Shown here: one piece after another, positions 1 to 28,537 of the stretch
Layout of the letters: every line of letters starts with the position of its first letter
Numbering within the stretch: position 1 is the first letter of the stretch
Source of the DNA: a virus
Reading direction: 5' to 3' (one strand)
Virus record (IMG/VR): IMGVR_UViG_3300018065_000059
Location: 1 to 28,836 of that record
DNA length: 28,836 nt
The notes under the pieces: generated by a model
The model's database searches: none
Told to the model about the DNA's origin: nothing
The model's input: only the letters and a program-made list of their open reading frames with translations
Translations under genes and position numbers: made by a program

Positions 1-27
1 AACACGCGACAAGCACAGGAGAAGAAG

Positions 28-4521: not shown

Positions 4522-6041
4522 TCGCCAAGTCGGCAGTCCAGGCGTTCCTCGAGCGCCCGATGCGCGACTCGACCGTTGCCAAGCGCATGAGCGAGCGCAA
4601 GCTCGACCGTCTCATCGAGAAGGCCGGGCTCGAGTTCCACACCGAGCCCCGTCGAGCGCAGAAGGTCTGCGTCCTGCTCGGGTGGCGCTACCCGAGCTAC
4701 CTGTTCTTGCTGGGCATGGGCGGCGGCAAGTCGAAGGTCTCCCTCGATCTGTTCCGCAACCGCCGCCGGGCTGGACAGGTGCGACGGATGCTCGTGCTCG
4801 TCCCGAACATCGTGAACCTCGGAGCTTGGGAGGAAGAAGCGCACAAGCACGCTCCCGATGCCTCGGTCGTGACCATCGACCAGTCAGGGCAGCGCCGCGT
4901 TGCTGCGCTGCTCGGTGAGGACGAGATCGCAGTCATGACCTACCAGGGCCTCGTGTCGATGGCGAAGACGATCGAACCTGACGAGATCGCGCGCCACTTC
5001 GAGATGCTGGTGCTCGACGAATGCACAGCGGTCAAGAACGCGAACACGAAGGCGTTCCGCATCCTCCGCAAGATGCGGAAGCGCATCGAGTTCTGCTACG
5101 GGCTGACGGGCACCCCCTTCGACAAGAACCCGATCGACCTGTGGAGTCAGTTCTTCCTGGTGGACAAGGGCGACACCTTGGGCGAGACGCTGGGGTTGTT
5201 CCGTGCTGCGTTCTTCCGCAAGGAGCAGGGCTACTTCGGCGGGACGAAGTACGCTTTCAAGCAGGCGATGAAGAAGAAGCTCGCCAGGCGCCTTGCGAAC
5301 CGATCGGTTCGGTACAGCGAGGCCGAGTGCCAGGACCTTCCTCCCGCTGTTGGAGGCATCGGCAACGAGTTGATGCTCGTCCCGGTCGAGATTCCCTCGG
5401 CGGCGCTGCCCTACTATGAAGCGATCCACTCCGAGCTTCGGAAGGCGCGCGGCGATCATCAGCTCGTGGACAACGCCTACGCCCGGATGCGGATGGTGTC
5501 GAGCGGGTGGCTTGGAGCGCGGACCGACGATGGCGAGAAGGTGGAGATCACCTTCCCCGAGAACCCCGTCGCGGATGCCGTGCTCGATCTGTTGAACAAG
5601 ATCCCGGCGAGCGAGAAGGTGATCGTGGTCGCCTACTTCCAGACTACCTGCGCCTTGCTGCTCGAGCGGATTCGAGCCGCCGGACACCGGGCGACGATCG
5701 TGAACGGTGCGTTGACCAAGAAGCAGAAGCTCGCGAACCTCGAGAAGTTCCGCCAGGACAGCAAGATGCGCGTGCTCGTGGCGAGCACCGCGATCAGCAA
5801 GGGCGTGAACCTGCAAGCTGCCTCGAGGTTCATGGTGTTCGCAGAGTCGCCCGACTCGACCATCGAGCGCAGCCAGATGGAAGCTCGCATCCGGCGCGAG
5901 GGTGGTGAAGGGAAGCCGTGCTACTACTACGATGTCGTCGCCCGACCGAAGAAGCGGGCGGGCGTTGCCGAGCGCATCCTGGAGTCGCTGACCACAGGGC
6001 GCGACCTGCACGAGTGCCTGATCGACAGCCGTAGGAGTTGA
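4518..6041 (+). CDS. second SF2 (SNF2/DEAD-like) helicase
   Basis: 507 aa. Walker A GMGGGKSK at 66-73, an unusual DECT in place of DEAD/DEAH (about 167-170), motif III LTGTPFDKNP, and a C-terminal helicase lobe with IVVAYFQTT, STAISKGVNLQAA and an arginine-finger-like motif SQMEARIRREG. The N-terminal 60 residues are basic and may bind DNA. Only about 20% of the sequence looks shared with the SNF2 protein at 28, so this is a separate paralogue, not a recent duplicate. Such enzymes in phages (T4 UvsW is the model) migrate branches, unwind R-loops or reverse forks. Start is the ATG of an ATGA overlap. Placed between replicative helicase and primase. Confidence 0.85.
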   Translation: MIAKSAVQAFLERPMRDSTVAKRMSERKLDRLIEKAGLEFHTEPRRAQKVCVLLGWRYPSYLFLLGMGGGKSKVSLDLFRNRRRAGQVRRMLVLVPNIVNLGAWEEEAHKHAPDASVVTIDQSGQRRVAALLGEDEIAVMTYQGLVSMAKTIEPDEIARHFEMLVLDECTAVKNANTKAFRILRKMRKRIEFCYGLTGTPFDKNPIDLWSQFFLVDKGDTLGETLGLFRAAFFRKEQGYFGGTKYAFKQAMKKKLARRLANRSVRYSEAECQDLPPAVGGIGNELMLVPVEIPSAALPYYEAIHSELRKARGDHQLVDNAYARMRMVSSGWLGARTDDGEKVEITFPENPVADAVLDLLNKIPASEKVIVVAYFQTTCALLLERIRAAGHRATIVNGALTKKQKLANLEKFRQDSKMRVLVASTAISKGVNLQAASRFMVFAESPDSTIERSQMEARIRREGGEGKPCYYYDVVARPKKRAGVAERILESLTTGRDLHECLIDSRRS

Positions 6042-6043
6042 CC

Positions 6044-7024
6044 GTGTTCGATTGGATGCACTTCCTCCAAGCCAACGGCGTCGAGCATGTTGTTGGCCCC
6101 ACCTCGAACGTGCGTCGAGGGCATGTCGGCTTCAACTGTCCGCGCTGCGCCGATGATGCGAAGCACCACTACTCGATCGAGCTGGACACGGGAAAGATCC
6201 GTGGGTGCTGGCGCGATCCTTCCCACTGGATGCCCCCGGCGGAGCTGATCGTTGCGCTTTCCGGCTGCACGCTCCACCGCGCCTACGAGCTGTTGAAGGG
6301 GCAGGAGGAGCAAGGCACGACGGGCGCGACCGCTGCGGACCTGCTCGAGGAGCTGACCGCCTCCGATGAGGACGAGTCGCCCGTGAAGAAGGTGCGCTGG
6401 CGTGACGAGCACCACAGGTTCCGCTTCTCCGGGGCGTCGAAGAAGCAGAAGCGATTCGTGCGCTACCTGGAGCAGCGCGGCTTCACGCTGGATGATGCTG
6501 TTCGTGGTGGGCTTCGATGGGCAGCCGATGGCAAGGATCGGAACAGAATCATCTTCCCCCTCTACTCGTGGGAGGAGGGCTTTCTGGCCGGGTGGTCGGG
6601 CCGTTCGATCGGCTCTGCTCGAGCGAAGTACCTCAGCTACCCCTCGGGCGAAGCGATCCAGCACCTCTGCTATGAAAGTCGCCCCTTGTCCGAGAATGAT
6701 CTGCTGGTGATCGTGGAGGGCCCCTTCGATGCGTTCAGCGTCACCACGAAGCTCGACACGATGCCGGATGATCCCGGTGTCGTGGGTTGCGCCATCCTGT
6801 CCAACAGCGTAGGACCCGAGAAGATCAAAGTCCTGGCTGCGATGGGCAGCCTCGCCCGCCAGACCGTGATCATGCTCGACCGTGGAGCGGAGACGCAGGC
6901 CCTCGAGCTGGCGAGACAGCTCGCCCTCGTCAAGCCCGATGTCGTCCTTCCCATCGACGGTGTGAAGGACCCCGGGGATGCAACCGAGCAGCAGCTTCGG
7001 CGCGCTCTGCGGGGCTTCTTGTAG
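6044..7024 (+). CDS. DnaG-like primase (zinc finger plus TOPRIM)
   Basis: About 326 aa. The N-terminus has a zinc-ribbon-like pattern (CPRC near residue 30, then GCWRDPSH about 20 residues on), as in phage primases. A TOPRIM-like core follows, with VIVEGPFDA (conserved Glu and Asp) and MLDRGAETQ where DnaG-type enzymes have a DxD motif; here the second Asp is absent. By family it makes RNA primers for Okazaki fragments with the helicase at 3079. Start: a TTG at 6038 overlaps the upstream stop, but AGGAG at 6033-6037 sits at the proper distance only for the GTG at 6044, so I use that. It is short for a bacterial primase (about 580-600 aa), lacking the helicase-binding domain. Confidence 0.8.
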   Translation: MFDWMHFLQANGVEHVVGPTSNVRRGHVGFNCPRCADDAKHHYSIELDTGKIRGCWRDPSHWMPPAELIVALSGCTLHRAYELLKGQEEQGTTGATAADLLEELTASDEDESPVKKVRWRDEHHRFRFSGASKKQKRFVRYLEQRGFTLDDAVRGGLRWAADGKDRNRIIFPLYSWEEGFLAGWSGRSIGSARAKYLSYPSGEAIQHLCYESRPLSENDLLVIVEGPFDAFSVTTKLDTMPDDPGVVGCAILSNSVGPEKIKVLAAMGSLARQTVIMLDRGAETQALELARQLALVKPDVVLPIDGVKDPGDATEQQLRRALRGFL

Positions 7025-7119
7025 GCGAATCATTTTTCCGCCTTTCTGGTGGACTGGACCGGCTCCACTGTGGATGATCGGTTTCGTCGGGAATAGGCCC
7101 GGCACACACGCAGACACAG
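7025..7119 (+). other. short non-coding gap, no clear element
   Basis: A 95-base gap after the primase, one of the longest in the window. It holds a locally A/T-rich patch (CATTTTTCC near 7030-7040) in otherwise G+C-rich DNA and an AATAGG near 7092. A weak imperfect GGCG...CGCC pairing exists but the T-run sits in its loop, so it is not an intrinsic terminator. A promoter for the sigma/clamp/polymerase genes is plausible, but I see no convincing -35/-10 pair. Confidence 0.3.
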
Positions 7120-7182
7120 ATGAACGACATCAAGCCCGGCGACCTCTGGGAGCGCGACATGGTGCAGGAGGGCTCGCTGTGA
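7120..7182 (+). CDS. possible 20-residue leader peptide or gene remnant
   Basis: ATG to TGA gives MNDIKPGDLWERDMVQEGSL. Its stop overlaps the GTG start of the sigma-like gene by GTGA, and the sigma gene's ribosome site lies inside it, the arrangement used for translational coupling. No good ribosome site is seen in front of its own ATG. The start resembles the opening of small phage proteins beginning with an I-x-P-G-D/Q-x-W pattern, so it may be a truncated relic. Coding status uncertain. Confidence 0.35.
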   Translation: MNDIKPGDLWERDMVQEGSL

Positions 7183-7700
7183 TCGAGTTCGACGACCCGA
7201 ACATCCAAGCGTTCTGCCGCCGCCAGATCCGCAAGTTGCGCGCGGCGAGCGACTACCAGCTCTCCGACGACGACATCATGCAGGAGCTTCGGATCGAGCT
7301 GTGGCTCGCTCTCGAAGCCTCTGACCCCGAGCGGGGAGACGGCGCCGCGATGACCATGTTCAAGAACCGCATCCACTGGATGCTGATGCGGTACAACCGT
7401 CACTACAAGGCCCGGCTGCCTCTGACGCAGCCGCCCGCCGACGAGGAGGGGACAGCCCTTTTCGATAGCACGCAGCAGGCGGACGAAAGCTATGATCCGA
7501 CCTGGATGAAGCTGGCGCTGGAGGAGGCCCCTCCCGAAGTGCGCCGCTTCGTCGAAGCCTACCGCACCGCCTTCGGCAACGGACACGCGCCCTCGATGGA
7601 GAGGCTGTCGCGTGAGGTGGTCGGTGTTTCCTGGCGCACGCTTGCTCCGCGAGTGCGGAGTTGGGCGGCGCTGTCCTGCCCGGTCGAGGACCGGGCCTAA
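7179..7700 (+). CDS. sigma-70-like factor (region 2 / region 4-like)
   Basis: 173 aa. Residues about 25-75 read like sigma region 2: DDDIMQELRIELWLALEASD, then an acidic/Gly turn, MFKNRIHWMLMRYNRH, matching the D-x-x-Q-E...lW-x-A pattern and the following helix. A Pro/Asp linker leads to a C-terminal helical segment (APSMERLSREVVGVSWRTLAPRVRSW) that could be a region-4-type helix-turn-helix. By family it would bind host RNA polymerase core and direct it to phage promoters, as T4 gp55 does; T4 gp55 also works with the sliding clamp, encoded two genes on here. Start GTG is backed by AGGAGGG at 7166-7172; an ATG at 7074 would add 35 unlikely residues. Family resemblance is read by eye. Confidence 0.55.
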   Translation: MIEFDDPNIQAFCRRQIRKLRAASDYQLSDDDIMQELRIELWLALEASDPERGDGAAMTMFKNRIHWMLMRYNRHYKARLPLTQPPADEEGTALFDSTQQADESYDPTWMKLALEEAPPEVRRFVEAYRTAFGNGHAPSMERLSREVVGVSWRTLAPRVRSWAALSCPVEDRA

Positions 7701-7715
7701 CCCAACATCAAAGTC

Positions 7716-8489
7716 ATGGCGAAGAAGACGGGCGCAGCGATCGAGAAGGAGCTGGTGAAGCTCACGGGTCTCAAGCGCAAGGACGGGGAGCCCCAGGACA
7801 AGTGGGTCACCCGCGTCTGCAAGAAGGCCCTCTCCCTCGACGAGGAGGTCCTCCAGGACATGAGCGACGACGCCTACGAGGCGGCGAACGCGGTGCTTGA
7901 CGCGATCGAGGCCAAGGAGGAGGTCCCCGACTTCGACGGTTCGGAGATCGATCCCGAGGAGGAGCCCGAGGAGGAGCCCGAGGAGGAGCCCGAGGACGAC
8001 GAGGACGACGAGGAGGAGTCCGAGCCCGAGGAGGACGACGAGGACGACGAGGAGGAGTCCGAGCCCGAGGAGGAGCCCGAGGACGAGCCCGAGGACGAGC
8101 CCGAGGAGAAGCCCGCTCGCAAGAAGGCCGCCAAGAAGACGGCCAAGAAGGCGAGCAAGAAGACCGCCAAGAAGGCCGCCAAGAAGGCCGCCAAGAAGGC
8201 CGCCAAGAAGACGGGCACGCGCAAGCACAAGAAGGTCGAGTCGCCCGCCACGGGCGCCGAGGTCTCGCTGCACCGGGCCTTCCGCGACCTGGTGATCCTC
8301 AACTTCGGCAAGTCGCGTCAGGAGTTGCTCGACCTCGGTGAGGAATCGGGCATCGGCCTCCCGCGACACTCGATGTCCACGACGATCTACCACACGAACG
8401 AGACCGTCGAGGCGCTCACCGAGATCCACGGCTTCGAGATGCCCTCGGGCACCGCGAAGAAGAAGAAGCGCACCAGCCGCAAGTCCTGA
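7716..8489 (+). CDS. histone-H1-like acidic/basic repeat protein
   Basis: 257 aa in four blocks. Residues 1-80 are a small helical domain. Residues about 81-133 are almost pure Glu/Asp/Pro (EEEPEEEPE, DDEDDEEESEPEE units). Residues about 134-170 are Lys/Ala (AKKAAKK units), like the histone H1 tail or bacterial HU/H1-like proteins. Residues about 175-257 form a second globular domain (LHRAFRDLVILNFGKSRQEL) with a final basic tail KKKKRTSRKS. The basic block should bind DNA non-specifically; the acidic block may mask it or bind a basic partner. A nucleoid or packaging role is inferred. The coding DNA is correspondingly repetitive (7957-8112 and 8129-8212). No strong ribosome site precedes the ATG. 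Confidence 0.7.
   Translation: MAKKTGAAIEKELVKLTGLKRKDGEPQDKWVTRVCKKALSLDEEVLQDMSDDAYEAANAVLDAIEAKEEVPDFDGSEIDPEEEPEEEPEEEPEDDEDDEEESEPEEDDEDDEEESEPEEEPEDEPEDEPEEKPARKKAAKKTAKKASKKTAKKAAKKAAKKAAKKTGTRKHKKVESPATGAEVSLHRAFRDLVILNFGKSRQELLDLGEESGIGLPRHSMSTTIYHTNETVEALTEIHGFEMPSGTAKKKKRTSRKS
7957..8212 (+). repeat. in-frame low-complexity repeats (GAGGAGCCC and GCCAAGAAG units)
   Basis: Short tandem units encode first the Glu/Pro acidic block and then the Lys/Ala basic block of the histone-like protein. All units are multiples of 3 bases, so length changes by slippage would keep the frame. Such a stretch is also a likely place for assembly error. Confidence 0.8.
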
Positions 8490-8506
8490 ACCCAGGGAGG
8501 GAAGTC

Positions 8507-9547
8507 ATGGAGCGCCAAGCTCTAGCCGAGGTGCTGCACCGCGTTCGTGGGGCAGTCGCCTCCAAGCCGACCATCCCCGCGTTCGGTGCCGTGTTCTTCG
8601 ATGGTCAGTACGCCGTCGCCTATGACGACGAGGTGGCCATCCAGACACCGTGCGACTTGAACGTGGTCGGCGGGATCGAGCACAAGACGCTCGAGACCTG
8701 GGTCAACGGGTGCAACGGCCTGATGGTCGAAGCCTCCGAAGTCGGTGATCAGATCGAGTTCAAGTGCGGTCGCTCGAGGGTCCTGACGACGCTGCTCGAG
8801 CCGGACTGCTTGACCTTCAAGCAGCCCTTCGGGTCTTCGGTCGAGATCCGCGAGCCCAGCGCCATCGTCGATGCCGTTGGTCGTGCGAAGCCCTTCATGG
8901 GGACCAACCCGTCGCTGCACTCCTGGATGCTCGGCATCACTCTGACCGTGGACGACAACGCTGTTCTGAGCGCCACGAACAACGTGGCGCTGACCAGCAT
9001 CGTCGCTGTCGCTGATGCGGAAGCACCCGCGCAGGTTCTCCTGTCGGCTCGCTTCGTCGAGCAGCTCCTCGCGATCTCGAAGAAGGTGCCCATCGCCGCG
9101 CTCGACATCGGAGATGGCTGGATCACGGCTTCGTTCGAGGACGACTCGGTCCTGTTCACCAGGACCTCAGCCGACTGCGCCCCGGAGCACTTCCAGCAGC
9201 TCATCGAGCAGAAGGAAGCCGAGGCCGCAGCTCGCGTCGAGTTGAACGAGGACGTGCTGCGCGCCGCGAAGAACGTGGACAAGGTGCTGCGCGCCGTTGA
9301 CTCGATCAACGTGGATGTCGTCGTCGTGGACGGGCGTGTTCAGATCTCCTCGACGGACGAGGCTCGAGTTCGAGTCGAAGACGAGGCAGACTTCGATCAT
9401 CCCGACACGGCGCTTGCCGTTCGGTCCTCGGACTTCGTGCTCGGGCTTGAGAACGCCCTCAGCGTCTTCCTCGGGGAAACGGCGATCGTGTTCTGGAACG
9501 AGGACTCGGTCTCGCTCGTCAGCGTAGGTGCCCACAAGAAGGGCTGA
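8507..9547 (+). CDS. DNA polymerase sliding clamp (DnaN/beta-like)
   Basis: 346 aa, close to the 366-380 aa of bacterial beta clamps. The N-terminus (ALAEVLHRVRGAVASKPTIP, then AVFFDGQYAVAYDDEVAIQ) follows the DnaN pattern of an opening helix, a K-x-x-x-P segment and a strand listing DNA- or ligand-facing residues. Alternating strand-like segments continue through three apparent repeats. The expected role is a ring that holds the polymerase at 9547 on DNA, loaded by the AAA+ protein at 12123. Neighbours strongly support this. A good ribosome site (GGGAGG) precedes the ATG, and its stop shares one base with the polymerase start (TGATG). The weakest point is sequence divergence; call rests on fold pattern and context. 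Confidence 0.7.
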   Translation: MERQALAEVLHRVRGAVASKPTIPAFGAVFFDGQYAVAYDDEVAIQTPCDLNVVGGIEHKTLETWVNGCNGLMVEASEVGDQIEFKCGRSRVLTTLLEPDCLTFKQPFGSSVEIREPSAIVDAVGRAKPFMGTNPSLHSWMLGITLTVDDNAVLSATNNVALTSIVAVADAEAPAQVLLSARFVEQLLAISKKVPIAALDIGDGWITASFEDDSVLFTRTSADCAPEHFQQLIEQKEAEAAARVELNEDVLRAAKNVDKVLRAVDSINVDVVVVDGRVQISSTDEARVRVEDEADFDHPDTALAVRSSDFVLGLENALSVFLGETAIVFWNEDSVSLVSVGAHKKG

Positions 9548-12126
9548 TGATCGACGGATTCTTCACTCGGCAGGACGCCAAGGAGGTGCGGACCAGGAAG
9601 CGGGCGGCTCGACGCGGGCCGTCCGTGGAGACGCTGCACCAGCTCGGCACGAAGGGGGTGCGGACCATGAACCGCAAGGCGCGCACGCCCCTGATGGAGC
9701 CTGACCGATGCGAGGACCCGTTGGTCTATGTGCTCGGAGGCGCCCCCACCCTGGTCGATGATCGCAACGGCTTCCCCTTCTCGGACGAGGACGGGGAGTT
9801 CCTGCGCGAGTCGATCCCCAGGTGGGGGCGTTCCGTCACCATGTTCGACAACGCCTGTCGGACGCTGCCTCCGAAGGGCCGGGATCCGAAGCCCGAGGAG
9901 TTGGAGTGCTTCCGCCCCTCGGTCGTCGAGTCCATCGAGAAGGCACAGCCGAAGGTGGTGATCGCTGTCGGCAAGGTCGCCCTCAAGTGGGCGAACGGGA
10001 TCACCCAGCCCATCATGGCTCGTGGTCGCAAGTATCCCGTCAGGTTCGGCAAGCACGAGTGCTGGATGGTCCCGCTGCTCGAGCCCGGCTGGATCATCGA
10101 CAACTACGAGGGCCGCCCCTTCAAGGTCAGCGGGAAGGAATGGCTCGCGCAGTGGCAGAAGGACATCGAGTTCGCCTACCAGTTGGCGGACCTCGACGAG
10201 CCCCCGGTCTTCGTCGAGGAGGATGAAGTCAAGGACGGCATCGAGCACGTGCTCTCGCTCTCGGCGCTCCAGCGCGCCGTGAAGCAGCTCCGCAAGGAGA
10301 CGCGGAAACGATCATCCTTCGACTGCCTCGGATGCGACATCGAGACGCACCGATTCCGGTTCTGGCATGAAGGCGCCCGTCTTCTCTCGCTTGCCTTCTC
10401 GACCCCGAGCAAGACCTACAGCATTCCCCTCGACCACCCCGAGCAGTCCTGGGGTGTAGATCGCAAGCGCGTGATCGAGTTGCTCCGGCAGGTGTTCCTG
10501 GACTCGGAGGTGCCGGTCGTCTTCCACAACCTGCCCTTCGACATCGAGTGGCTGGCGATGGTCCTCGGGAAGGACTTGCTCACCGAAGCGAACCTCGGGT
10601 GCTCGCTCCAGTCGGGCTATGTCCTGAACCCTGGCCCTCCTGGAGACGGCGCTGCGGGCTTGTCCCTCGATGACCTGTGCCTCGAACGGTTCGGGCTCGC
10701 AGCGAAGTCCCTGGCCCCGGCAGCGCAGTACGTGGCCCGCCTGATGGAGCAGCCTTTAGCCAAGGTGCTGGACTACAACGCCTACGATGCCCGCTTGGCC
10801 TGCTTGTTGTGGTCGGACTTGCAGCGAGATGTCGCCGCCGACGACGGGCTCGAGATGAGCTACAGGCTCCAGATGGAGCGCATCCCGGCTCTGGTGAACG
10901 CGCAGATCATGGGCGTCCCCGTCGATCAGGGGATCCGGCGCGAGATGGAGAAGGACTTCGACTCGAAGCTCAAGCAGCTCGAGGACGCGATCCGCGCTGA
11001 CCCCGAAGTGCAGGAGTGGGAGGCAGCGAATGAAGCGTTCAGTCCCACCTCGACCGACCACGTGGGCAAGCTGCTCGGGGACCAGCTCCGCATCCCCGGC
11101 GTGAAGAAGGCCAAGGGCTACAGCACGGCAGCGAACGTGATCGAGGCCGCGCGAGACGATCATCCGATCGTGGACATGATCCTCAAGCACCGGGGTCTGT
11201 CGAAGCTCGCTGGGACCTATGTGCGGCGCTTCAACCCGGATCACGAGGAGTCCTATGTTTCGAGTGATGGGCTCGTTCACTGCCGGTACTCGGTGTCCAA
11301 GACCAGGACTTTCCGACTCTCGAGCGAAGATCCGAACAACCAGAACTGGCCCAAGCGGAAGAACAAGGAGGTCCGCAAGCAGCTCGCGGCCCCGAAGGGC
11401 TGGGTGTTCGTCGCTGCGGACCAGGGCCAGATCGAAGCTCGAGTCCTCGCGATGGAGTCCCGCGATCCCACCTGGGTTCGCATGATCGGTGAGGACTACG
11501 ACATCCACACCGAATGGGCGGAGAAGCTCGCAGGCATCGACGACGACTTTGCTGCGCTGCTCGAGGAGAAGCCGAAGGCTGCGCGACATCAAGCGAAGAA
11601 CGGGTGGGTCTTCCCGTCCTTCTACGGCTCGAGTCTGCGCTCGATCATCGAGACCATCGGGCTCGAGGACGAGAACGCAGCAGGCGCGCTGTTCGAGGAG
11701 TTCTGGCGCACCTTCAAGGGCATCAAGTCGTGGCAGCAGGAGCAGAAGCGCAAGTACGACCGTCTCGGCTATGTGCGAAGCCTGACGGGCCGCCGCCGCA
11801 TGGGTCCGCTGTCCTGGAACATGATTATCAACACGCCGATTCAGTGCGCGGCTTCGGACATCTGCGTAGATGCCATGGTGAGGTGCTACCGCAGGTCGGT
11901 CGAGGAGGAAGCCCCCTTCCTCTGCCCCGTGTTGCAGATCCACGACGACCTCACCTTCCTCGTCCCTGAGTCGGAGTTGGGGTACGCAGTCCCGGTGATC
12001 GTCGAGGAGCAGCTCAACTTCAACGCGCCGTGGGTGAATGTCCCTCTCAGCGTAGAAGTGGAAGTCGGACCTAACCTCTTCGACATGGAAGAAATCGGAA
12101 CCTGGACCAGCAAGGACCTACAGTGA
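9547..12126 (+). CDS. family A DNA polymerase with N-terminal UDG-like domain
   Basis: 859 aa in three parts. Residues about 55-225 resemble family 4 uracil-DNA glycosylases: VYVLGGAPTLVDD, GFPFSDEDGEFL, NACRTLPPKGRDPKPEE, and KVVIAVGKVALKW; the expected HPS active-site loop reads EPG at 179-181, so glycosylase activity is doubtful. Residues about 255-430 are a DEDD 3'-5' exonuclease (DIETH at 264, HNLPFDIEW near 327, YNAYDAR near 411). The polymerase domain follows: motif A AADQGQIEAR (Asp625), motif B RHQAK...FYG (Arg680, Lys684), motif C HDD at 799-801. E. coli Pol I has DYS and HDE at these sites. This is the phage replicative polymerase. Start shares one base with the clamp stop; the end overlaps the clamp loader by GTGA. 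Confidence 0.93.
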   Translation: MIDGFFTRQDAKEVRTRKRAARRGPSVETLHQLGTKGVRTMNRKARTPLMEPDRCEDPLVYVLGGAPTLVDDRNGFPFSDEDGEFLRESIPRWGRSVTMFDNACRTLPPKGRDPKPEELECFRPSVVESIEKAQPKVVIAVGKVALKWANGITQPIMARGRKYPVRFGKHECWMVPLLEPGWIIDNYEGRPFKVSGKEWLAQWQKDIEFAYQLADLDEPPVFVEEDEVKDGIEHVLSLSALQRAVKQLRKETRKRSSFDCLGCDIETHRFRFWHEGARLLSLAFSTPSKTYSIPLDHPEQSWGVDRKRVIELLRQVFLDSEVPVVFHNLPFDIEWLAMVLGKDLLTEANLGCSLQSGYVLNPGPPGDGAAGLSLDDLCLERFGLAAKSLAPAAQYVARLMEQPLAKVLDYNAYDARLACLLWSDLQRDVAADDGLEMSYRLQMERIPALVNAQIMGVPVDQGIRREMEKDFDSKLKQLEDAIRADPEVQEWEAANEAFSPTSTDHVGKLLGDQLRIPGVKKAKGYSTAANVIEAARDDHPIVDMILKHRGLSKLAGTYVRRFNPDHEESYVSSDGLVHCRYSVSKTRTFRLSSEDPNNQNWPKRKNKEVRKQLAAPKGWVFVAADQGQIEARVLAMESRDPTWVRMIGEDYDIHTEWAEKLAGIDDDFAALLEEKPKAARHQAKNGWVFPSFYGSSLRSIIETIGLEDENAAGALFEEFWRTFKGIKSWQQEQKRKYDRLGYVRSLTGRRRMGPLSWNMIINTPIQCAASDICVDAMVRCYRRSVEEEAPFLCPVLQIHDDLTFLVPESELGYAVPVIVEEQLNFNAPWVNVPLSVEVEVGPNLFDMEEIGTWTSKDLQ

Positions 12127-13061
12127 CGGAGCTTCACACTAAGTACCGCCCGAAGACCTTCGATGAGCTGATCGGCCACGACGCCGTGGCAGCAGCCGTG
12201 CAGAAGGCTCTCGACAAGGGCACCGCGCGCTCGTTCCTGTTCACGGGCGAGCCGGGCCTTGGCAAGACCACCTTTGCCCGCGTGATCGCGGACCACCTCG
12301 GGCTCGATCCTACGAGCGACAGCTCGAACTACATCGAGTACGACGGCGCGACGAACACGGGCGTAGACGACATGCGGGCCATCCTCGACAAGACGAGGTT
12401 GTTGCCTCTGTCGGGCAAGCGGACCCGCGTGATCGTGATCGACGAGGCGCACATGCTCTCGAAGCAGGCGTGGAACAGCGCGCTCAAGGTCGTGGAGGAG
12501 CCTCCGCCCGATGTGTACTGGGTGTTCTGCACGAGCGAGCTGCGCCGTGTCCCGGCGTCGATCCGCTCGCGCTGCCAGGAGTTCATTCTGTCCGAGTTGT
12601 CCGATGACGACATCGCAGAGATCGTGTGCCAGGTGATCGACGACGAGCAGATGACCGTCAAGTCCGAGGTGACCGAGCTGGTGATCCAGCACGCGGAGGG
12701 GCGCCCGCGCAAGGCGCTCGTTGCTCTCGGCCAGGTCGAGGGCCTCAACTTCGAGGACGCCCGCCGCGTGCTCTCGGGCACCACCGAAGAAGGCCACGCC
12801 GAGGTGATCGACCTGTGCCGCCGGTTGGCGAAGGGCTCGGACTACCCCGCGCTGGCGAAGACCGTGCTCAAGCTCCAGGGCGAAGTCACAGCGGACGCCG
12901 TGCGCGCCCAGGTCCTCGCGTACTTCACGAAGGCTGCTGGAGGGCAGAAGTGGCGCCAGGCCGCCGCGATCCTCACAGCCTTCGGCACTCCCTACCCGCA
13001 AGGCATCGGCAACCAGCTCTGGCCGGTGCTCGTTTCACTCGCAGAGCTGTTCGAGGAATGA
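12123..13061 (+). CDS. AAA+ clamp loader (RFC small subunit / DnaX-like)
   Basis: 312 aa, matching T4 gp44 and RFC small subunits in size. It opens with KYRPKTFDELIGHDAV, a hallmark of clamp loaders, then Walker A GEPGLGKT at 42-49, Walker B DEAH near 107-110 (IDEAHMLSKQAWNSALKVVEEPP region), sensor 1 and an SRC motif (RSRC) near 147-150 that reaches the neighbouring ATPase. C-terminal helices should form the collar. It would open the clamp at 8507 using ATP. No second clamp loader subunit is seen here, so it may act as a homopentamer or with a gene outside the window. GTG start overlaps the polymerase stop. Confidence 0.9.
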   Translation: MTELHTKYRPKTFDELIGHDAVAAAVQKALDKGTARSFLFTGEPGLGKTTFARVIADHLGLDPTSDSSNYIEYDGATNTGVDDMRAILDKTRLLPLSGKRTRVIVIDEAHMLSKQAWNSALKVVEEPPPDVYWVFCTSELRRVPASIRSRCQEFILSELSDDDIAEIVCQVIDDEQMTVKSEVTELVIQHAEGRPRKALVALGQVEGLNFEDARRVLSGTTEEGHAEVIDLCRRLAKGSDYPALAKTVLKLQGEVTADAVRAQVLAYFTKAAGGQKWRQAAAILTAFGTPYPQGIGNQLWPVLVSLAELFEE

Positions 13062-13627
13062 TGTCCAAGCAGATCACGCAGCCGTCCGAAGTCCGGGACG
13101 AGCTGGCTATCAACAGGGCTCGTCTCGACGACGAGCTGGTCGGCCAACCCTCGCTCGTCTTCGATGTCCAGATGGAGTACGCGAAGGTGATGTCCAAGAA
13201 GGACGCGATCAAGGAGGCGTTGAAGCGCCTCGAGGTCGAGAAGTTCAAGCACTTCAAGCGCACGCTCGAGAAGGGCACGGACAAGGACGCGAACGCCGAA
13301 GTCGAGTTGGACGAGGAGGTGCAGAAGCTCCGCGACAACTACGCGCTCGCGATGGGCATGGCCCGCCGCTGGGAGGCCGCCTTCGAGTCGGTCAAGGCCC
13401 GTGGCTACGCGCTGCATAAGCTCGTGGACATGCACCTGACCCAGGGCGCTGCCATCGCTGGTCAGTTCGAGCGCGGTGACGATCGTTCCCAGGAGGCGAT
13501 GCGCGAGCGACGCCGCCGCCGCTCCGAGGAGTCCCAGTCCGCCGAGACCGACACCGGGAACGAGGAAGCCAGCGCCGGGACCCCGCGCCGCAAGCGCAGA
13601 ACCCGCCGAACCTCGAGCGACGAGTAG
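13058..13627 (+). CDS. UvsY-like recombination mediator
   Basis: 189 aa. Residues about 25-140 follow the layout of T4 UvsY as I recall it: an Asp/Leu start (DVQMEYAKVMSKKDAIKEAL), a basic helix (RLEVEKFKHFKRTLE), then the helical segment WEAAFESVKARGYALHKLVDM, which lines up with UvsY's alpha-helical end (a x-x-I-K-S-R-G-F-A-I pattern). Order supports it: it sits beside gp32-like and UvsX genes, whose products UvsY joins. The last 50 residues are an added Arg-rich, disordered tail absent from T4 UvsY. By family it loads UvsX on gp32-coated ssDNA. Two ATGs (13058, 13061) are possible; the second is better spaced from GAGG at 13053-13056. Confidence 0.65.
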   Translation: MMSKQITQPSEVRDELAINRARLDDELVGQPSLVFDVQMEYAKVMSKKDAIKEALKRLEVEKFKHFKRTLEKGTDKDANAEVELDEEVQKLRDNYALAMGMARRWEAAFESVKARGYALHKLVDMHLTQGAAIAGQFERGDDRSQEAMRERRRRRSEESQSAETDTGNEEASAGTPRRKRRTRRTSSDE

Positions 13628-13691
13628 GCCGCCGAGCGTAGGATCCCCCGCGACGCCTAGCGTCCAAGCAACATCAACAGGAATCAGCAAC
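13628..13691 (+). other. intergenic leader before ssDNA-binding protein gene
   Basis: A 64-base gap that breaks the otherwise overlapping gene chain. It contains TAGGAT at 13639-13644 (a TANNNT, -10-like hexamer) and a ribosome site AGGAA at 13679-13683, 8 bases before the ATG. It may add a promoter for the ssDNA-binding protein, which phages need in large amounts. No matching -35 was found. Confidence 0.35.
13639..13644 (+). promoter_or_regulatory. candidate -10-like hexamer TAGGAT
   Basis: Lies in one of the few intergenic gaps, about 48 bases before the ssDNA-binding-protein ATG. The same hexamer occurs in the gap before the last gene (28566-28571). No -35 partner at 16-18 bases is convincing, so this is only a candidate. 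Confidence 0.2.
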
Positions 13692-14890
<1,199 letters not shown>

Positions 14891-15934: not shown

Positions 15935-16392
15935 GACAGCCCCGCGTCCTGCTGCCGGAGAACGGCGTCGTCGGTGTTGATCCTGGCAGGTCGTCAGGGT
16001 CGATCGCCTATGTCGTCGGAGATGAAGCGTTCACCTGGCCGCTCAAGAACATGACCGACCTCGAGATCTGGTCGGTGTTCGAGCGGCTCGGTGGATGCGC
16101 TTCGTTCGCCGTGCTCGAGCGCGTGAACGCCATGCCCAAGCAGGGCGTGGCCTCGAGCTTCAAGTTCGGCGCTTCCTTCGGGGAGTTGAAGATGGCCCTC
16201 GTGGCTGCACGCCTCCGCTTCGAGCTGGTGACTCCCGCCACCTGGCAGGGCAAGCTCAGGTGTCGCACGAAGGGCGACAAGAACATCACGAAGACCCTGG
16301 CGCAACGGCTCTGGCCGGGCGTCAAGATCACACACGCAACCGCAGATGCGCTCCTGCTCGCGGAGTACGGGCGCCGACACCTCTCAGCATGA
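15931..16392 (+). CDS. RuvC-fold Holliday junction resolvase-like nuclease
   Basis: 153 aa, the size of phage RuvC-like enzymes. Catalytic acids fit the RNase H/RuvC fold: Asp17 in GVDPGRSSG (first strand), Glu63 in AVLERVNAMPKQG, and His135/Asp139 in HATADALLLAEYG. The MPKQG segment after the Glu resembles the Q-G pattern of RuvC-like proteins. The expected job is cutting four-way or branched junctions made by UvsX and at replication forks before packaging. GTG start overlaps the UvsX stop by GTGA; the end overlaps the MazG-like gene by ATGA. Confidence 0.85.
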   Translation: MRQPRVLLPENGVVGVDPGRSSGSIAYVVGDEAFTWPLKNMTDLEIWSVFERLGGCASFAVLERVNAMPKQGVASSFKFGASFGELKMALVAARLRFELVTPATWQGKLRCRTKGDKNITKTLAQRLWPGVKITHATADALLLAEYGRRHLSA

Positions 16393-16799
16393 ACAGATCC
16401 TTCAACGACTACCAAGTCCGGGCGACCGAGACAGCCCTCCCCGCCGACAATGCCTGCAACCAGATCGCCGGTCAGTTCGACAGCTACGACGGCGAGAACC
16501 ACCGCGAAGTGTCCGACCTCGAGCGGGTGCTTCGACTCAACTACTCGGTCCTCGGACTCACGAACGAGGCAGGCGAAGTCGCGGGCAAGGTCAAGAAGAT
16601 GATCCGCGACAAGGGCGGCGAGATCGACGACGAGTTCCGGGCGCAGATGGTGGCGGAGCTTGGCGATGTCCTCTGGTACTTGTCGGACACGTGCTCATCC
16701 CTGGGAATCCTGTTGAGCGACGTGGCGGCCCAGAACATCGCCAAGCTCAAGGATCGCCAGGAGCGCGGAAAGCTCCAGGGCGACGGCGACAACCGCTGA
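16389..16799 (+). CDS. MazG-like nucleotide pyrophosphohydrolase
   Basis: 136 aa. The all-helical NTP pyrophosphatase pattern is visible: LTNEAGEVAGKVKKMIRD (metal-binding Glu pair) and, 25 residues later, VAELGDVLWYLSDTC (Glu/Asp pair). By family it hydrolyses (d)NTPs to monophosphates, or ppGpp-like or damaged nucleotides. Phage MazG proteins have been linked to nucleotide-pool control and to host stress signalling; which applies here cannot be told. ATG start overlaps the preceding stop. The N-terminal 40 residues (FNDYQVRATETALP) are the usual extension of this phage subfamily. Confidence 0.85.
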   Translation: MNRSFNDYQVRATETALPADNACNQIAGQFDSYDGENHREVSDLERVLRLNYSVLGLTNEAGEVAGKVKKMIRDKGGEIDDEFRAQMVAELGDVLWYLSDTCSSLGILLSDVAAQNIAKLKDRQERGKLQGDGDNR

Positions 16800-20623: not shown

Positions 20624-20892
20624 AGTCGCACAAGCTCTACTTCGACCCGAAGCGCGACGCCCTGATGAGCAAGCACGGCGAGATGAACGCCTGCTATGTC
20701 TGCGGGCGCCCGCTCGATGCAGATCGAGCCCAGTTCATCCACGTGGTCGGCGGAGGGCTCGAGTGGACGGACGACGAGGACTGGCCCGACGACCCGGGCA
20801 GCCTCGGATGCTTCCCCGTCGGAGCCTTCTGCTACCAGATGATGCGGACCAGGGCGGGCCTCCATGAGCGCCCCCATGAGCCCAGCTCTTGA
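20620..20892 (+). CDS. small putative zinc-binding protein, 90 aa
   Basis: ATGA overlap start. Cysteines are arranged as CYVCG near residues 25-29, with His in QFIHVVGGG about 18 residues later, and LGCFPVGAFC near 64-73, which could make one zinc site. A distant relation to HNH-like or recombination-endonuclease VII-like treble clefts cannot be excluded, yet no H-N-H triad is seen. Unknown function. Its last 29 bases overlap the terminase-like gene. Confidence 0.6.
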   Translation: MKSHKLYFDPKRDALMSKHGEMNACYVCGRPLDADRAQFIHVVGGGLEWTDDEDWPDDPGSLGCFPVGAFCYQMMRTRAGLHERPHEPSS

Positions 20893-21499
20893 CCTAGGAG
20901 CACCTTCCAGGGTAGACCTCGAAGGACCCAGCATCCGACAGGGAGCGACCGTACAGAAAGTCGAACCCGTCGAACGCCTCTACCGTCGCACCCGAGGAAT
21001 GACGAAGAAGCGCCAGCGCCGCGTGCTCGAGAAGGGCACGGAAGAGAAGGAACCGCCGAATGATACAGGCGGGAAGAAGGAGCCTTGGCGCGAGCTTCCG
21101 AAGGTCGAGCTGGCCCGAAAGCTGCCCGGACTCGGGCGTCCCAGCAAGTTGACGGGACCCGTGCTCAAGCAGATCGAGACGATCTGCATGTTGGAAGCGA
21201 ACCCGAGCTACAGGACGATCGCGAAGATCATCGGAGTCAAGCACACGACCTTTCATGCTTGGCTGAATGAATATCGAGGTCTGAGGGAACAGGTTGATTC
21301 ATGGAGGCAGACGGCGCTTCAAAGCCTGCGCCGAGCAGCCGTGAGTGAAGCGCGGAACGGAGACATGCGGACGCTGCGCTGGCTACTGGACAGGCGGGAC
21401 CGCGACTTCAAGAAGGAAGACGAGCCGGGCGGCGTAGATGCTGGTGCTTCGACGCTGTGGAGCGACGACGACGAGACCCCTGACCCCACCTTCCTGTGA
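20864..21499 (+). CDS. terminase small subunit-like DNA-binding protein
   Basis: 211 aa from the first ATG; in-frame ATGs at 20876 and 20999 are possible and 20999 (164 aa, GAGGA just before) may be the true start. From about residue 90, GRPSKLT...NPSYRTIAKIIGVKHTTFHAWLNEY is a helix-turn-helix of the kind that opens small terminases. The later ARNGDMRTLRWLLDRRDRDFK matches the family's helical end (x-x-G-D-x-x-x-x-x-W-L-L-x-R-R). Role: recognises phage DNA for packaging, or another regulator with the same fold. No large terminase lies in the window. A patch around 21241-21310 is richer in A/T than its surroundings. Confidence 0.6.
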   Translation: MSAPMSPALDLGAPSRVDLEGPSIRQGATVQKVEPVERLYRRTRGMTKKRQRRVLEKGTEEKEPPNDTGGKKEPWRELPKVELARKLPGLGRPSKLTGPVLKQIETICMLEANPSYRTIAKIIGVKHTTFHAWLNEYRGLREQVDSWRQTALQSLRRAAVSEARNGDMRTLRWLLDRRDRDFKKEDEPGGVDAGASTLWSDDDETPDPTFL

Positions 21500-22670: not shown

Positions 22671-23360
22671 ATGGTCACCAAGAAGCGCAAGCGCCGGGTC
22701 ACGAAGGGCGCGGCGATGGAAGTCGAGACGGTCCCGATCGACGACCTCAAGCTCGACAGCCGCAACGCGAGGAAGGGCAGCATCGGCCCGATCGCTGAGT
22801 CCCTCCAGGAGTTCGGCCAGCACCGCCCCGCTGTGGTGCAGCGCGGGACGAACAAGATCATCGCCGGGAACCACATGGTCAAGGCGGCGAAGTCGATCGG
22901 CTGGGACGAGATCGCCGTCGTGTTCGTGGACGACGACGACGAGCAGAGCATCCGGCGAGCCATCGCGGACAACGCGACCGGCGACCTGGCGACGTGGGAC
23001 GAGGCCGTCCTCAAGTCCCTGATGGACGAGGTCGGTACGGACATCCCCGGCGTCACCGACGATCTGCTCGAGCAGCTCCAGAAGGCCACGAAGGAGGTGG
23101 AGGACGACGACGGCCCCACCTACCCGATCGTCCCCCGGATGAACGAGAAGTACGGCTACGTGGTGATCGTGGCCGAGTCGGAGGTGGACTGCGCCTGGCT
23201 CGAGACCACCTTCGGGCTCCAGAAGGAGCAGAGCTACAAGAACAGCAAGATCGGGATCAGCCGAGTGGTGACGGTCTCGAGGCTCCAGGCCGAGACCCGC
23301 CTGGGCGCGCTCGGCGCCCAGAACGACGAGGACGAGGACGACATCGAGGAGGTGGAGTGA
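22671..23360 (+). CDS. ParB-like (ParB/Srx-fold) nuclease-domain protein
   Basis: 229 aa. After a basic start, residues about 18-105 follow the ParB N-terminal domain: VETVPIDDLKLDSRNARKG, IAESLQEFGQHRPAVV, IIAGNHMVKAAKSIG and VVFVDDDDEQSIRRAIADN. The usual G-E-R-R box is G-N-H-M here, as in many phage ParB-like proteins. The C-terminal 80 residues (YGYVVIVAESEVDCAWLETTFGL) form a second strand-rich domain. No centromere-binding helix-turn-helix is seen, so plasmid partition is unlikely. In phages this fold occurs beside DNA-modifying enzymes, and its stop shares a base with the glycosyltransferase-like start here. Ribosome site GAGGAA at 22655-22660. Confidence 0.75.
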   Translation: MVTKKRKRRVTKGAAMEVETVPIDDLKLDSRNARKGSIGPIAESLQEFGQHRPAVVQRGTNKIIAGNHMVKAAKSIGWDEIAVVFVDDDDEQSIRRAIADNATGDLATWDEAVLKSLMDEVGTDIPGVTDDLLEQLQKATKEVEDDDGPTYPIVPRMNEKYGYVVIVAESEVDCAWLETTFGLQKEQSYKNSKIGISRVVTVSRLQAETRLGALGAQNDEDEDDIEEVE

Positions 23361-24112
23361 TGCACGTGCCCTGCGTAGTCCCGACTCACGGGCGGTCGAA
23401 GAAGGTGCTGACCTTCGATGCGATCGACGACATCATCCTGTGCGTAGCCGAGTCCCAGCTCCCGCTGTACAAGGAGACCTACCCCGATGCTGAGTACAGC
23501 GTCCACCCCGACAGCGTCGTCGGGCTGAGTGCCAAGAGGCAGTGGATCTACGAGGAGTTCGGGGACGTGTTCATGCTCGACGACGATGCAGTCGCCCTCT
23601 ACGACATGACGCACGAGGCTGGCAGCACCGAGGCCAGCAAGATCAGCCCGAAGCGCGCTCGAGCCATGCTCGATCGGCTGTACACCGAGGCGAAGGACCT
23701 GGGCGTCTACCTCTGGGGGTTCTTCCAGTCGTCGGACCCCCGGATGTACGGGCCCCAGAACCCTTTCAAGGTCACGGGCTACGTGCTGGGCGGAAGCATC
23801 GGCCTCTGCGCGGGCAGCCGGATCCACTTCCCGAAGGAGATCAACACGATCGAGGACTTCTGGGCAGCGGGCCTGAACGCGCACTACCACCGGAAGATCT
23901 GGGTGGACCGGCGCTACGCCTTCAAGTTCAAGGACACCTTCAAGGGCAAGGGAGGCTGCTCGCAGCACCGGACGATCGACGTGGAGAAGCGCGGGAACGA
24001 GATGCTCCGCAAGGCGTTCGGGACGAAGGTGATCATCCCGAAGGCGCCGACGCCCCTGACGGGTGTTCGACACCCGGGGCAGCGGACCTTCAAGTCGCCC
24101 TTCAACAAGTGA
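23360..24112 (+). CDS. TAGT-like (TET/JBP-associated) glycosyltransferase
   Basis: 250 aa. The opening VPCVVPTHGRSKKVLTF, then LCVAESQLPLYKETYP, a G-L-S-A-K-R-Q-W-I segment and FMLDDDAVALYD (Asp74-76) match the layout of TAGT glycosyltransferases: short strand, G-R, sugar-nucleotide loop, R-Q-W helix, acidic D-D-D metal site. Later LGGSIGLCAG and EDFWAAGLNAHYHRK are also GT-A-like. Iyer and colleagues described TAGT genes in phages with TET/JBP base oxidases, ParB-like proteins and other modification genes. No such oxidase is in this window, so the acceptor (modified pyrimidine or other) is unknown. It closes the operon just before an intrinsic terminator. Confidence 0.6.
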   Translation: MHVPCVVPTHGRSKKVLTFDAIDDIILCVAESQLPLYKETYPDAEYSVHPDSVVGLSAKRQWIYEEFGDVFMLDDDAVALYDMTHEAGSTEASKISPKRARAMLDRLYTEAKDLGVYLWGFFQSSDPRMYGPQNPFKVTGYVLGGSIGLCAGSRIHFPKEINTIEDFWAAGLNAHYHRKIWVDRRYAFKFKDTFKGKGGCSQHRTIDVEKRGNEMLRKAFGTKVIIPKAPTPLTGVRHPGQRTFKSPFNK

Positions 24113-24133: not shown

Positions 24134-24163
24134 AGCGGGGGCTTCGGCCCCCGCTTCATTTTC
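24134..24163 (+). terminator. intrinsic (Rho-independent) terminator
   Basis: A 9-bp perfect stem AGCGGGGGC / GCCCCCGCT closed by a TTCG tetraloop, at 24134-24155, followed directly by TCATTTTCC. It lies 21 bases after the glycosyltransferase stop and marks the end of the long replication/recombination run. It is the clearest termination signal in the window. Confidence 0.88.
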
Positions 24164-26409: not shown

Positions 26410-27168
26410 ATGAAGACCTTGTTCTGCAACCTGTGGAAGGGCGAGGGCTTGCCCGCCTTCTCCGAGAACGCCTACGGGCCTGCTGATGTGTTGCGACTCT
26501 GGCGCGGGATGAAGCGACATGTGAGCGACGCGAGGCTGGTGGTGCTCACCGACGAGCATTACTTCGATGCCGTGAACGAAGCGATCCGAGACGCCGCGCA
26601 GCTCGAGCAGTACGAGGGCATTCTCGGCACCTGCGCGGCTGAGAAGTACGAGGGCTACGGGTGCGGGGGCTGGACCAACGTGATGGAGGTCTTCCGCCCC
26701 GACCTGTTCGAGCGTTACATCGGAGCGAAGTTCGCGCGCGGCGTCGTCGTGGGACTGGACACCGTGTTCGTTCGCAACTCGGACTGGCTGTGGGAGTGGG
26801 CAGATTCGCCCGTAGGTCTGCCCGTGGACCCCTACGACTCAGATGTCCCGTGCGATGCTGTGGTGACCTTCGACATGATCGGAGCGCACCTGGCCTGGTC
26901 GGAGCACCTGCGCGCTGCCAGCGAGGTCGAGTACCCGCACCGGCTGTTCGGCAAGCCCTCGGAGATGGTCCTGCTCCAGCACCTCTGGCGCCTGAACAAC
27001 TGGACCATGCTCGAGGCTTCCATGGAGAAGCTCGTCAGCTACAAGGGCAAGCGCCTCGCGGAAAGCGGCGCCATCCCTCCCCGCGCGACGGTCGTGTACT
27101 TCCACGGACGCCCGAAGCCGTGGGAGATCGACTCGGGCCACCCCGTCTACCAGGAGTGGGTGCGGTGA
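26410..27168 (+). CDS. GT-A-type glycosyltransferase
   Basis: 252 aa. KTLFCNLWKGEG at the start, then RHVSDARLVVLTDEHYF, VVVGLDTVFVRNSDWLWEW (a D-x-x-F variant of the metal-binding DxD) and the C-terminal FHGRPKPWEIDSGHP, which matches the F-H-G-x-x-K-P-W ending common to phage glycosyltransferases of this type. It would transfer a sugar from a nucleotide-sugar. It opens a three-gene set with an LpxA-like acyltransferase and a sulfotransferase, suggesting a decorated glycan; the acceptor (host surface polymer, virion protein or DNA) is unknown. No good ribosome site; see the candidate leaderless promoter. End overlaps the next gene by GTGA. Confidence 0.78.
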   Translation: MKTLFCNLWKGEGLPAFSENAYGPADVLRLWRGMKRHVSDARLVVLTDEHYFDAVNEAIRDAAQLEQYEGILGTCAAEKYEGYGCGGWTNVMEVFRPDLFERYIGAKFARGVVVGLDTVFVRNSDWLWEWADSPVGLPVDPYDSDVPCDAVVTFDMIGAHLAWSEHLRAASEVEYPHRLFGKPSEMVLLQHLWRLNNWTMLEASMEKLVSYKGKRLAESGAIPPRATVVYFHGRPKPWEIDSGHPVYQEWVR

Positions 27169-27899
27169 AGGACGCCCCCTCCATCCACCCCAGCGCGGTG
27201 GTGGCTCCCGATGCTCGCATCGGGCCGGGAGTGATGATCGGGCCGAACGCCGTGATCTTCGGGCGTGTTGCGATCCATGCGGGCGCGAAGATCAGCTCGG
27301 GCTGCATCATCGGGGAGTGGCCCGAGCACCGGGAGATCGGACAGCGCCCCGAGGACTACACCGATCCGAACGAGTCCTGGGTGGTGATCGGCAAGGACGT
27401 GACCCTGCGCGAGAACGTGGTGGTTCAGCGCGGGCTGCCCGTCAGCTACGAGCAGAAGCGGGTGTGGGGGACCTCGATCGAAGAGGGGGCGTACATCATG
27501 CACGGCGCTCACGTGGCGCATGACTGCCACGTTGGCCCGTTCGCCACGCTGTCCCCGTACACCGTGCTCGGCGGGCACACGCTCGTCCAGGAGGGAGCGA
27601 ACCTGGGGATCCACAGCGCGACCCACCAGTTCTCGACCGTCGGTGCCTATGCCATGGTGGGGATGGGAGCGATGGTCGTTCAAGACGTGCGGCCCTTCGA
27701 GAAGGTGGTAGGCGTTCCCGCCAAGCCCATCGGTGAGAACCCGTTGGGCATGAAGCTCCTCGAGAAGACCAGGCGTAGGATTCAGCAGGACCAGCCCGGC
27801 ATCATCTTCCCTGCCCAAGCCGAGGAGTTCGTCGAAGCTGCTCGGCGCGGCATCGAGATCGTCTTCGACAGCATCAGCCTCCGACCCCGCAAGCGATGA
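27165..27899 (+). CDS. LpxA-like acyltransferase (left-handed beta-helix)
   Basis: 244 aa, near LpxA's 262. GTG start in a GTGA overlap. Hexapeptide repeats begin at once (IHPSAVVAPDARIGPGVMIGP...), then the LpxA-type AHVAHDCHVG with the catalytic-type His pair, HQFSTVGAYAMVGMGAMVVQDV, and the V-V-G-V-P-A-K-P closing motif. A helical end follows. LpxA acylates UDP-GlcNAc in lipid A synthesis; relatives acylate other sugars. The Gly/Ile-rich coil is clear, but which sugar or acyl donor is used cannot be told. A host-lipid-A-editing or sugar-acylating role fits the neighbours. Confidence 0.82.
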   Translation: MKDAPSIHPSAVVAPDARIGPGVMIGPNAVIFGRVAIHAGAKISSGCIIGEWPEHREIGQRPEDYTDPNESWVVIGKDVTLRENVVVQRGLPVSYEQKRVWGTSIEEGAYIMHGAHVAHDCHVGPFATLSPYTVLGGHTLVQEGANLGIHSATHQFSTVGAYAMVGMGAMVVQDVRPFEKVVGVPAKPIGENPLGMKLLEKTRRRIQQDQPGIIFPAQAEEFVEAARRGIEIVFDSISLRPRKR

Positions 27900-28537
27900 T
27901 CGTCAGTCACAAGCTCAAGCTCCTGTTCGCTCACGTGCCCAAGACGGGCGGAAGCTCGATCACTGAGGCGCTGCGGCCCTGGATCCACACGAATCGGGTG
28001 ACGAACCTCAAGCCCGGCGAGCGCGGCTGGCAGAACCAGTGGCACGCGATCGGCTCCATGCACTCGCCCTTCGGGCTGGAAGCGAAGCTCGCGCAGGACT
28101 TGATCGACTCCGGCTACCAGGTGGCGACGAGTCTCCGCACGCCCTTCGAGCGCATGGCGAGCATGTGGGCCATCAAGGGCAGAGCGAACGGAGTCGAGCC
28201 CTTCTCGTACCTGCGCAAGTACCTGCCCACCCACTGCCGGTTCACCGTGCAGGAGATGGCTGGTCCGCAGATCGACTTCGAGTTGAGCTTCGAGACGCTG
28301 GCGCAGAGCTTCTCGGACATGATGCTGGACCTGCACGTGGCCTACGACCCGGGCGACTTCCCGTGGGAGAACCGCCAGCCCAACATCACTCCCGGCGGAG
28401 GGAGCCGGGAGATCATGGAGCGGGTGTACGAGGACGACCGCGTGACGGCCTGGGTGCTCGACACCTTCGAGGACGAGTTCGACGAGTGGGGCTTCGACGA
28501 CGACCCGCTGGCGGGACTCCCCGAAGACCCGGCTTGA
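27896..28537 (+). CDS. sulfotransferase-family protein
   Basis: 213 aa. ATGA overlap start. The 5'-phosphosulfate loop reads HVPKTGGSSITEAL (Pro15-Ser21), the signature of carbohydrate and related sulfotransferases, and the 3'-phosphate site is recognisable in ATSLRTPFERMASMW near 75-90. The rest is helical, ending in an acidic tail. By family it moves sulfate from PAPS to a hydroxyl, often on sugars. It completes the GT / acyltransferase / sulfotransferase set. PAPS would come from the host. Substrate unknown. Confidence 0.8.
   Translation: MIVSHKLKLLFAHVPKTGGSSITEALRPWIHTNRVTNLKPGERGWQNQWHAIGSMHSPFGLEAKLAQDLIDSGYQVATSLRTPFERMASMWAIKGRANGVEPFSYLRKYLPTHCRFTVQEMAGPQIDFELSFETLAQSFSDMMLDLHVAYDPGDFPWENRQPNITPGGGSREIMERVYEDDRVTAWVLDTFEDEFDEWGFDDDPLAGLPEDPA

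Follow-up and report, generated by a model that had tools for sequence, protein, structure and literature searches.

A ParB-like gene coupled to a TAGT-family glycosyltransferase gene in an IMG/VR virus fragment: a candidate DNA-glycosylation module

The window, i.e., the whole stretch of DNA that was analysed, is the 28,836-base IMG/VR virus record IMGVR_UViG_3300018065_000059, which is classed as linear and is likely an incomplete fragment. It encodes a ParB-like protein (P0001) and, directly downstream, a glycosyltransferase (GT) of the TAGT family (P0002), with the following features:

22671-23360, + strand: ParB-like gene P0001, 229 aa (Pfam ParB_N; PHROG 620/8071, ParB-like; AlphaFold2 model resembling ParB/Noc CTPase folds)
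22722-22973, + strand: ParB_N domain, aa 18-101 of P0001 (Pfam), freely swapped among relatives
23106-23288, + strand: C-terminal domain of P0001, aa about 146-206, proposed GT-docking adaptor (alignment, mirror-tree, reverse search)
23360-23360, + strand: one-base stop/start overlap, TGATG (ORF coordinates)
23360-24112, + strand: TAGT-family glycosyltransferase gene P0002, 250 aa, clade P (PF20691, GT-A-like model, tree)
23579-23587, + strand: D74-D75-D76 of P0002, presumed metal/nucleotide-sugar motif, invariant in 50 sequences
23852-23857, + strand: E165-D166 of P0002, presumed catalytic acidic pair, invariant in 50 sequences
23951-23959, + strand: GGC motif (198-200) of P0002, then R204; G198 invariant, the others at least 90% conserved in 50 sequences
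24134-24155, + strand: intrinsic-terminator-like hairpin closing the gene pair (terminator-like site scan)

The ParB-like assignment of P0001 made in a preliminary description of the locus is borne out by a Pfam ParB_N match of 29.2 bits (cut-off 26.3), by PHROG ParB families matched down to 4e-33, and by the structural model, in which the N-terminal domain matches ParB, Noc, and sulfiredoxin and the C-terminal domain is modelled with low to moderate confidence. Profile and fold match together place P0001 in the ParB/Srx superfamily. In published work, substitution of the Box II arginine abolished NTP binding (PMC12704722). This arginine is present in 33 of 43 aligned ParB sequences and is missing in P0001, which has M69 at this position, and in nine of its 42 aligned relatives. 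A role in partition (ParABS) was rejected because no ParA was recognised beside P0001 and there is no HTH profile match; its C-terminus also differs.

For P0002, the Pfam search that the preliminary description had proposed returned the TAGT family PF20691, matched along its entire length (profile positions 2-205 of 205) at 49.7 bits (cut-off 27.5), and phrog_842 was matched with 66 bits. The D-D-D layout noticed earlier is real, because all residues invariant in an alignment of 50 relatives (Y37, G55, D74-D75-D76, G120, P135, E165-D166, and G198) are kept in P0002. Its model (pLDDT 84) matches TarP and other GT-A enzymes in the PDB with E about 1e-5 and a modest TM of about 0.5. Judged from its sequence, P0002 is a GT-A-type TAGT with an intact active site. 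The characterised member of the family, the TAGT of T6 (PF20691), adds a sugar to glucosylated hmC, is modelled as GT-A, and has kinship with GT2 enzymes with TarP as a named neighbour (PMC13216743). Kinship of P0002 with the alpha- and beta-GTs of T4 was rejected because those enzymes are GT-B (PMC13216743).

As described before, the two genes have one base in common: base 23360 belongs both to the TGA stop (23358-23360) and to the ATG start (23360-23362). The hairpin behind the pair has nine pairs (eight GC; -23 kcal/mol) followed by TCATTTT. It has the most pairs and is by far the best formed of the eight terminator-like sites of the window, which agrees with the claim that the strongest terminator follows the pair; the number of such sites in the window is not above chance (4 vs a mean of 10.5; 4 vs 4.5). 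Neither Rfam nor tRNA scans gave a match in the window.

Other parts of the window encode several recognisable proteins. Positions 9547-12126 encode a DNA polymerase A whose N-terminal domain belongs to the uracil-DNA-glycosylase superfamily (UDG, 53 bits, aa 57-188); over almost its full length, this polymerase aligns with those of Vibrio MAR10-like and Edwardsiella phages. A MazG-like nucleotide pyrophosphohydrolase (38 bits) lies at 16389-16799; such genes are sometimes found in phages that manage nucleotide pools. Three overlapping genes at 26410-28537, for a glycosyltransferase (phrog_1962), a hexapeptide acyltransferase-like, and a sulfotransferase-like protein, are perhaps a surface-glycan cassette. 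Behind the gene pair, the product of 24536-25156 matches only the C-terminal domain of MgsA, without the AAA+ ATPase part. Its homologues in the phage G007 (46% identity) and in Microbacterium phage Metamorphoo (gp87) occur in phages that also have a ParB-GT pair, and it was considered but not upheld as a third component, being shared only with Metamorphoo and with G007, where it is not adjacent. The 14,632-base IMG/VR contig L002 (IMGVR_UViG_3300017960_000426) equals window bases 1-14632 and has the same first base, which reflects either an assembly break common to both records or a physical end.

Neither the GT nor the ParB had a close relative among the viral and genome contigs that were searched directly by BLAST or by peptide scan. 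The GT search gave one weak phage match, MW202897, a "glucosyl transferase" beside a "pyrimidine hmase", through which TAGTs were reached in T4-like, Klebsiella, Stenotrophomonas, and Brevibacterium phages. A seven-sequence TAGT alignment was too diverse for a locus search, and a DNA pattern on DDD-ED-GGC was used instead, yielding 119 viral loci that are nearly all TAGT by HMM; this sample is biased towards GC-rich codons and a fixed spacing, for which the pattern selects. Most of what the pattern matched in bacterial genomes was due to chance; two bacterial contigs, L207 and L232, carry genuine TAGTs.

A maximum-likelihood tree of 106 GTs separates, with support of 100/100, a clade P that includes the window from a clade T of T4-like/T6 and LuckyBarnes type GTs; the exact positions of the window GT and of L016 are unsure because the two join each other on long branches. 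Most clade-P relatives are contig fragments. The two clades have different partners. Of 57 clade-P loci, 52 have a ParB gene upstream in the same orientation, or 52/52 testable ones (in the other five, the contig breaks off at the GT or less than 224 bases away), vs none of 60 clade-T loci (Fisher p about 3e-33, indicative only, as the relatives are not independent). Conversely, a TS-like gene (PF00303), probably encoding a pyrimidine hydroxymethylase, occurs in 44 of 50 clade-T records vs 0 of 99 clade-P records. Among 143 clade-P ParB-GT pairs scored, the genes overlap by four bases in 45, by one base in nine, and otherwise in 50. Several pairs can occur in one phage: L071 has two and G007, the closest relative, has three pairs of different type on one 45.8-kb phage (L250/L251). 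A further TAGT type (L071:6857-8322 and L251:4404-6003; 127-140 bits to Pfam) comes with its own ParB without the C-terminal domain, in phages that also have a clade-P pair.

The ParBs of clade P have a common C-terminal domain (C-domain), with the consensus ...EYxVIxxxxxxEWxxLxxxLxLxxVRRGGYKxGSxFDxVGTxRV in one subgroup. The window C-domain scores 61.9 bits to a C-domain model that includes the window sequence itself, and P0001-P0002 combine a C-domain ParB with a clade-P TAGT directly downstream. When viral contigs were searched in reverse, starting from the C-domain, 98 new loci were recovered, some of them other cuts of contigs already in the set, and a clade-P GT lies downstream on the same strand in 98/98. 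Together with the 52/52 and 0/60 counts, this sustains the earlier view of the two genes as a unit, the pairing being obligate in clade P. Two versions of the C-domain searched against 50,697 phage records matched only Javan291, which has the GT; the Metamorphoo ParB has a divergent C-domain that is detected by HMM. ParBs that precede other enzymes (in EastWest, Mariokart, prophi79-1, Acadian, and Tonitrus) are without it.

In mirror-tree comparisons, distances among GTs correlate with those among C-domains at r 0.93 for 31 dereplicated loci and 0.87 for 73 (partial 0.90 and 0.84), vs 0.52 and 0.46 for the ParB N-domain (partial 0.03 and 0.13). Terminases, taken as a linkage control, gave r 0.24-0.74 with the GT within four groups, each time under the C-domain value, and within the TerL_9 group the N-domain tracks the GT as well as, or slightly better than, the C-domain. 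Although the co-variation could partly be linkage, we infer from these distance correlations that the C-domain is the cognate of the GT and that the N-domain is exchangeable.

Most pairs lie close to packaging genes. With four different query terminases, a large subunit gene (TerL) from one of several terminase groups was found within 3 kb downstream in 72 of the 109 loci that have at least 3 kb of downstream sequence, and none upstream in 52 loci; the window is an exception, with a TerS-like gene (20864-21499) upstream of its pair. The order ParB-TET/JBP-TAGT before the terminase is found in the clade-P contig L125, where the three genes form one operon (4260-6537), and in mycobacteriophage Acadian (gp1-gp3). 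These two resemble clade-P relatives in having ParB and TAGT just before the terminase but differ from the window pair in the TET/JBP gene between the two and in a ParB without the C-domain. Acadian gp2, annotated as "queuine tRNA-ribosyltransferase", is TET/JBP-like in our analysis and probably misannotated.

Related ParBs also precede ABC-ATPase-GNAT proteins, which we take to be Mom-like, and one PAPS-reductase-like protein. In Gordonia phage Mariokart (gp1-2) and Arthrobacter phage EastWest (74-75), such a ParB is directly upstream of a probable DNA-modifying ABC-ATPase-GNAT protein; these pairs differ from that of the window in having an enzyme other than a GT and a ParB without the C-domain. 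The TAGT/ParB context is reportedly usually credited to one earlier published study. ParB domains have further been connected to phage methyltransferases and the carboxymethyltransferase CmoX (PMC12704722, PMC12783734), and the TET of L125 shares about 50% identity with a protein of Rhodococcus phage Tonitrus, the "Tet-like J-binding protein", that has been placed in a possible thymidine hypermodification system (PMC11955845).

Further known systems close to the window pair occur in Metamorphoo, Javan291, and T6/T2. The cultured phage Metamorphoo, with a complete genome, encodes in gp84-gp85 a C-domain ParB and a clade-P-like GT in overlapping ORFs and has no TS-like gene (PF00303 was not found); it differs from the window in the UDP-glucose dehydrogenase family gene that comes next in the cassette, possibly on the sugar donor side, and in a divergent GT without a Pfam TAGT match, which is carried by 56 records. 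In Streptococcus phage Javan291 (0034/0035), a C-domain ParB is followed by a TAGT (63 bits) before the terminase genes; the two are annotated as "DNA modification methylase" and hypothetical protein. The former (L258) has a ParB fold in our analysis and is probably misannotated. The beta-glucosyl-HMC-alpha-glucosyltransferase of T6/T2 is like P0002 in its Pfam family, modelled GT-A fold, acidic motifs, and GGC, but belongs to a separate, fully supported clade; the partner of P0002 is a ParB rather than a TS-like enzyme, and P0002 has no known glucosylated hmC acceptor.

To our knowledge, every characterised TAGT reaction requires a hydroxyl-bearing acceptor. Enzymes that could make such a handle were looked for in clade P. 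In agreement with the preliminary description, no TS-like hydroxymethylase or TET was found among the 20 ORFs scanned in the incomplete window. The C5-methylase PF00145 was found in 0 of 49 clade-P records. Searches with the TET profile PF12851 gave nothing above the cut-off, but this profile misses divergent phage TETs: control genomes were also silent, and the L125 TET scores only 19 bits against Pfam Tet_JBP (cut-off 34.9), so the absence of TET rests mainly on phmmer. Of all clade loci and nine larger genomes searched with the L125 protein by phmmer, only L125 itself and clade-T loci matched. Three clade-P genomes of 35-42 kb (G010, G016, and G025) are probably complete because 98-127 bases are repeated identically at their two ends. 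When most of the proteins predicted for them were scanned with Pfam (crude gene calls, the unscanned ORFs being mostly small or structural), the matches were to structural and recombination functions of phages, to ParB/TAGT, and to DUF5131 and DUF932; no TS-like enzyme, TET/2OG oxygenase, or C5-methylase was among them. The absence of a handle enzyme from clade P is thus well supported for TS-like enzymes and moderately supported for TET, and the ParB-GT pair was found again in over a hundred other phages without a known handle-making enzyme.

From sequence comparison, our best reading, held at slightly better than even confidence, is that the ParB-GT pair is a two-component, ParB-directed DNA-glycosylation module. 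The C-domain of the ParB would bind the GT and bring it to DNA, the exchangeable N-domain would serve as a DNA/NTP-binding targeting or clamp unit, and late in infection, at about the time of packaging, the GT would use a host nucleotide sugar to glycosylate the phage DNA, for restriction protection or marking. The need of characterised TAGTs for a hydroxyl-bearing acceptor, the missing Box II arginine of P0001, and the upstream TerS-like gene of the window speak against this reading. The acceptor is probably not a phage-made 5-hydroxymethylpyrimidine, because relatives have neither a gene for a TS-like hydroxymethylase nor genes for TET or a C5-methylase; candidates are a base position that is unmodified or unusual, and a handle supplied by the host or by an unrecognised enzyme. 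A bolder version, which we regard as less likely than not, is that the ParB-guided GT glycosylates phage DNA without any prior hydroxymethyl/TET handle, on a canonical base or a new acceptor, with the C-domain replacing the oxidase step and the N-domain picking the target.

The earlier proposal that this phage puts a sugar on a base stands in part. DNA modification is likely, given the ParB-TET-TAGT-terminase order and the Mom-like and PAPS-reductase-like neighbours of related ParBs, whereas a base donor gene elsewhere in the genome is not favoured; its alternative, that the system is different, fits the clade-P relatives better, as none of 99 records with the pair has a TS-like enzyme and no recognisable handle enzyme was found in the three end-overlapping genomes. 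The classical route, in which a 5-hydroxymethyl-U/-C enzyme encoded outside the 28.8-kb fragment prepares the base and the TAGT adds the sugar, is suggested by the characterised activity of the family (PMC13216743), by the TET beside ParB and TAGT in L125 and Acadian, by the TS-like enzymes of clade-T relatives, and by the incompleteness of the window. We nevertheless regard it as rather doubtful for this pair, as clade P has TS-like enzymes in 0/99 same-pair records and C5-methylases in 0/49, no TET homologue appears in its other loci or in the nine larger genomes, and neither the three end-overlapping genomes nor complete Metamorphoo have a TS-like enzyme.

Glycosylation of a protein of the virion or of the packaging machinery (capsid, tail, or terminase), with the ParB as adaptor, would suit a cassette that in most relatives lies just before terminase, portal, and capsid genes and has no base-handle enzyme, and GT-A enzymes often act on proteins or glycans. 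We consider it unlikely, since the characterised member of the TAGT family marks it as one that modifies DNA, ParB-TET-TAGT operons exist, and related ParBs are paired with other probable DNA-modifying enzymes. These same contexts would go unexplained if the GT acted on the ParB itself or on a host target, in counter-defence or takeover and without DNA modification. The tight one-to-one co-variation of C-domain and GT would also be expected for a ParB substrate, but the alignment of C-domains has no prominent conserved Ser, Thr, or Asn, and this reading appears very improbable.

In a 2026 study on the glucosyltransferases of T4, a solitary TAGT was reported for 288 of 753 GT-bearing phage genomes, and novel transferases were suggested (PMC13216743). 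Our comparison shows a large, deeply branching clade of ParB-coupled TAGTs that has no recognisable acceptor-making enzyme and has its own conserved ParB domain. The pair, which cultured lytic Microbacterium phages such as Metamorphoo also carry, may represent an undescribed way of marking viral DNA. If the DNA is modified, either the chemistry would be new or the module would be a DNA-glycosylation tool that is compact and targetable, and phages would have a further layer of protection against restriction.
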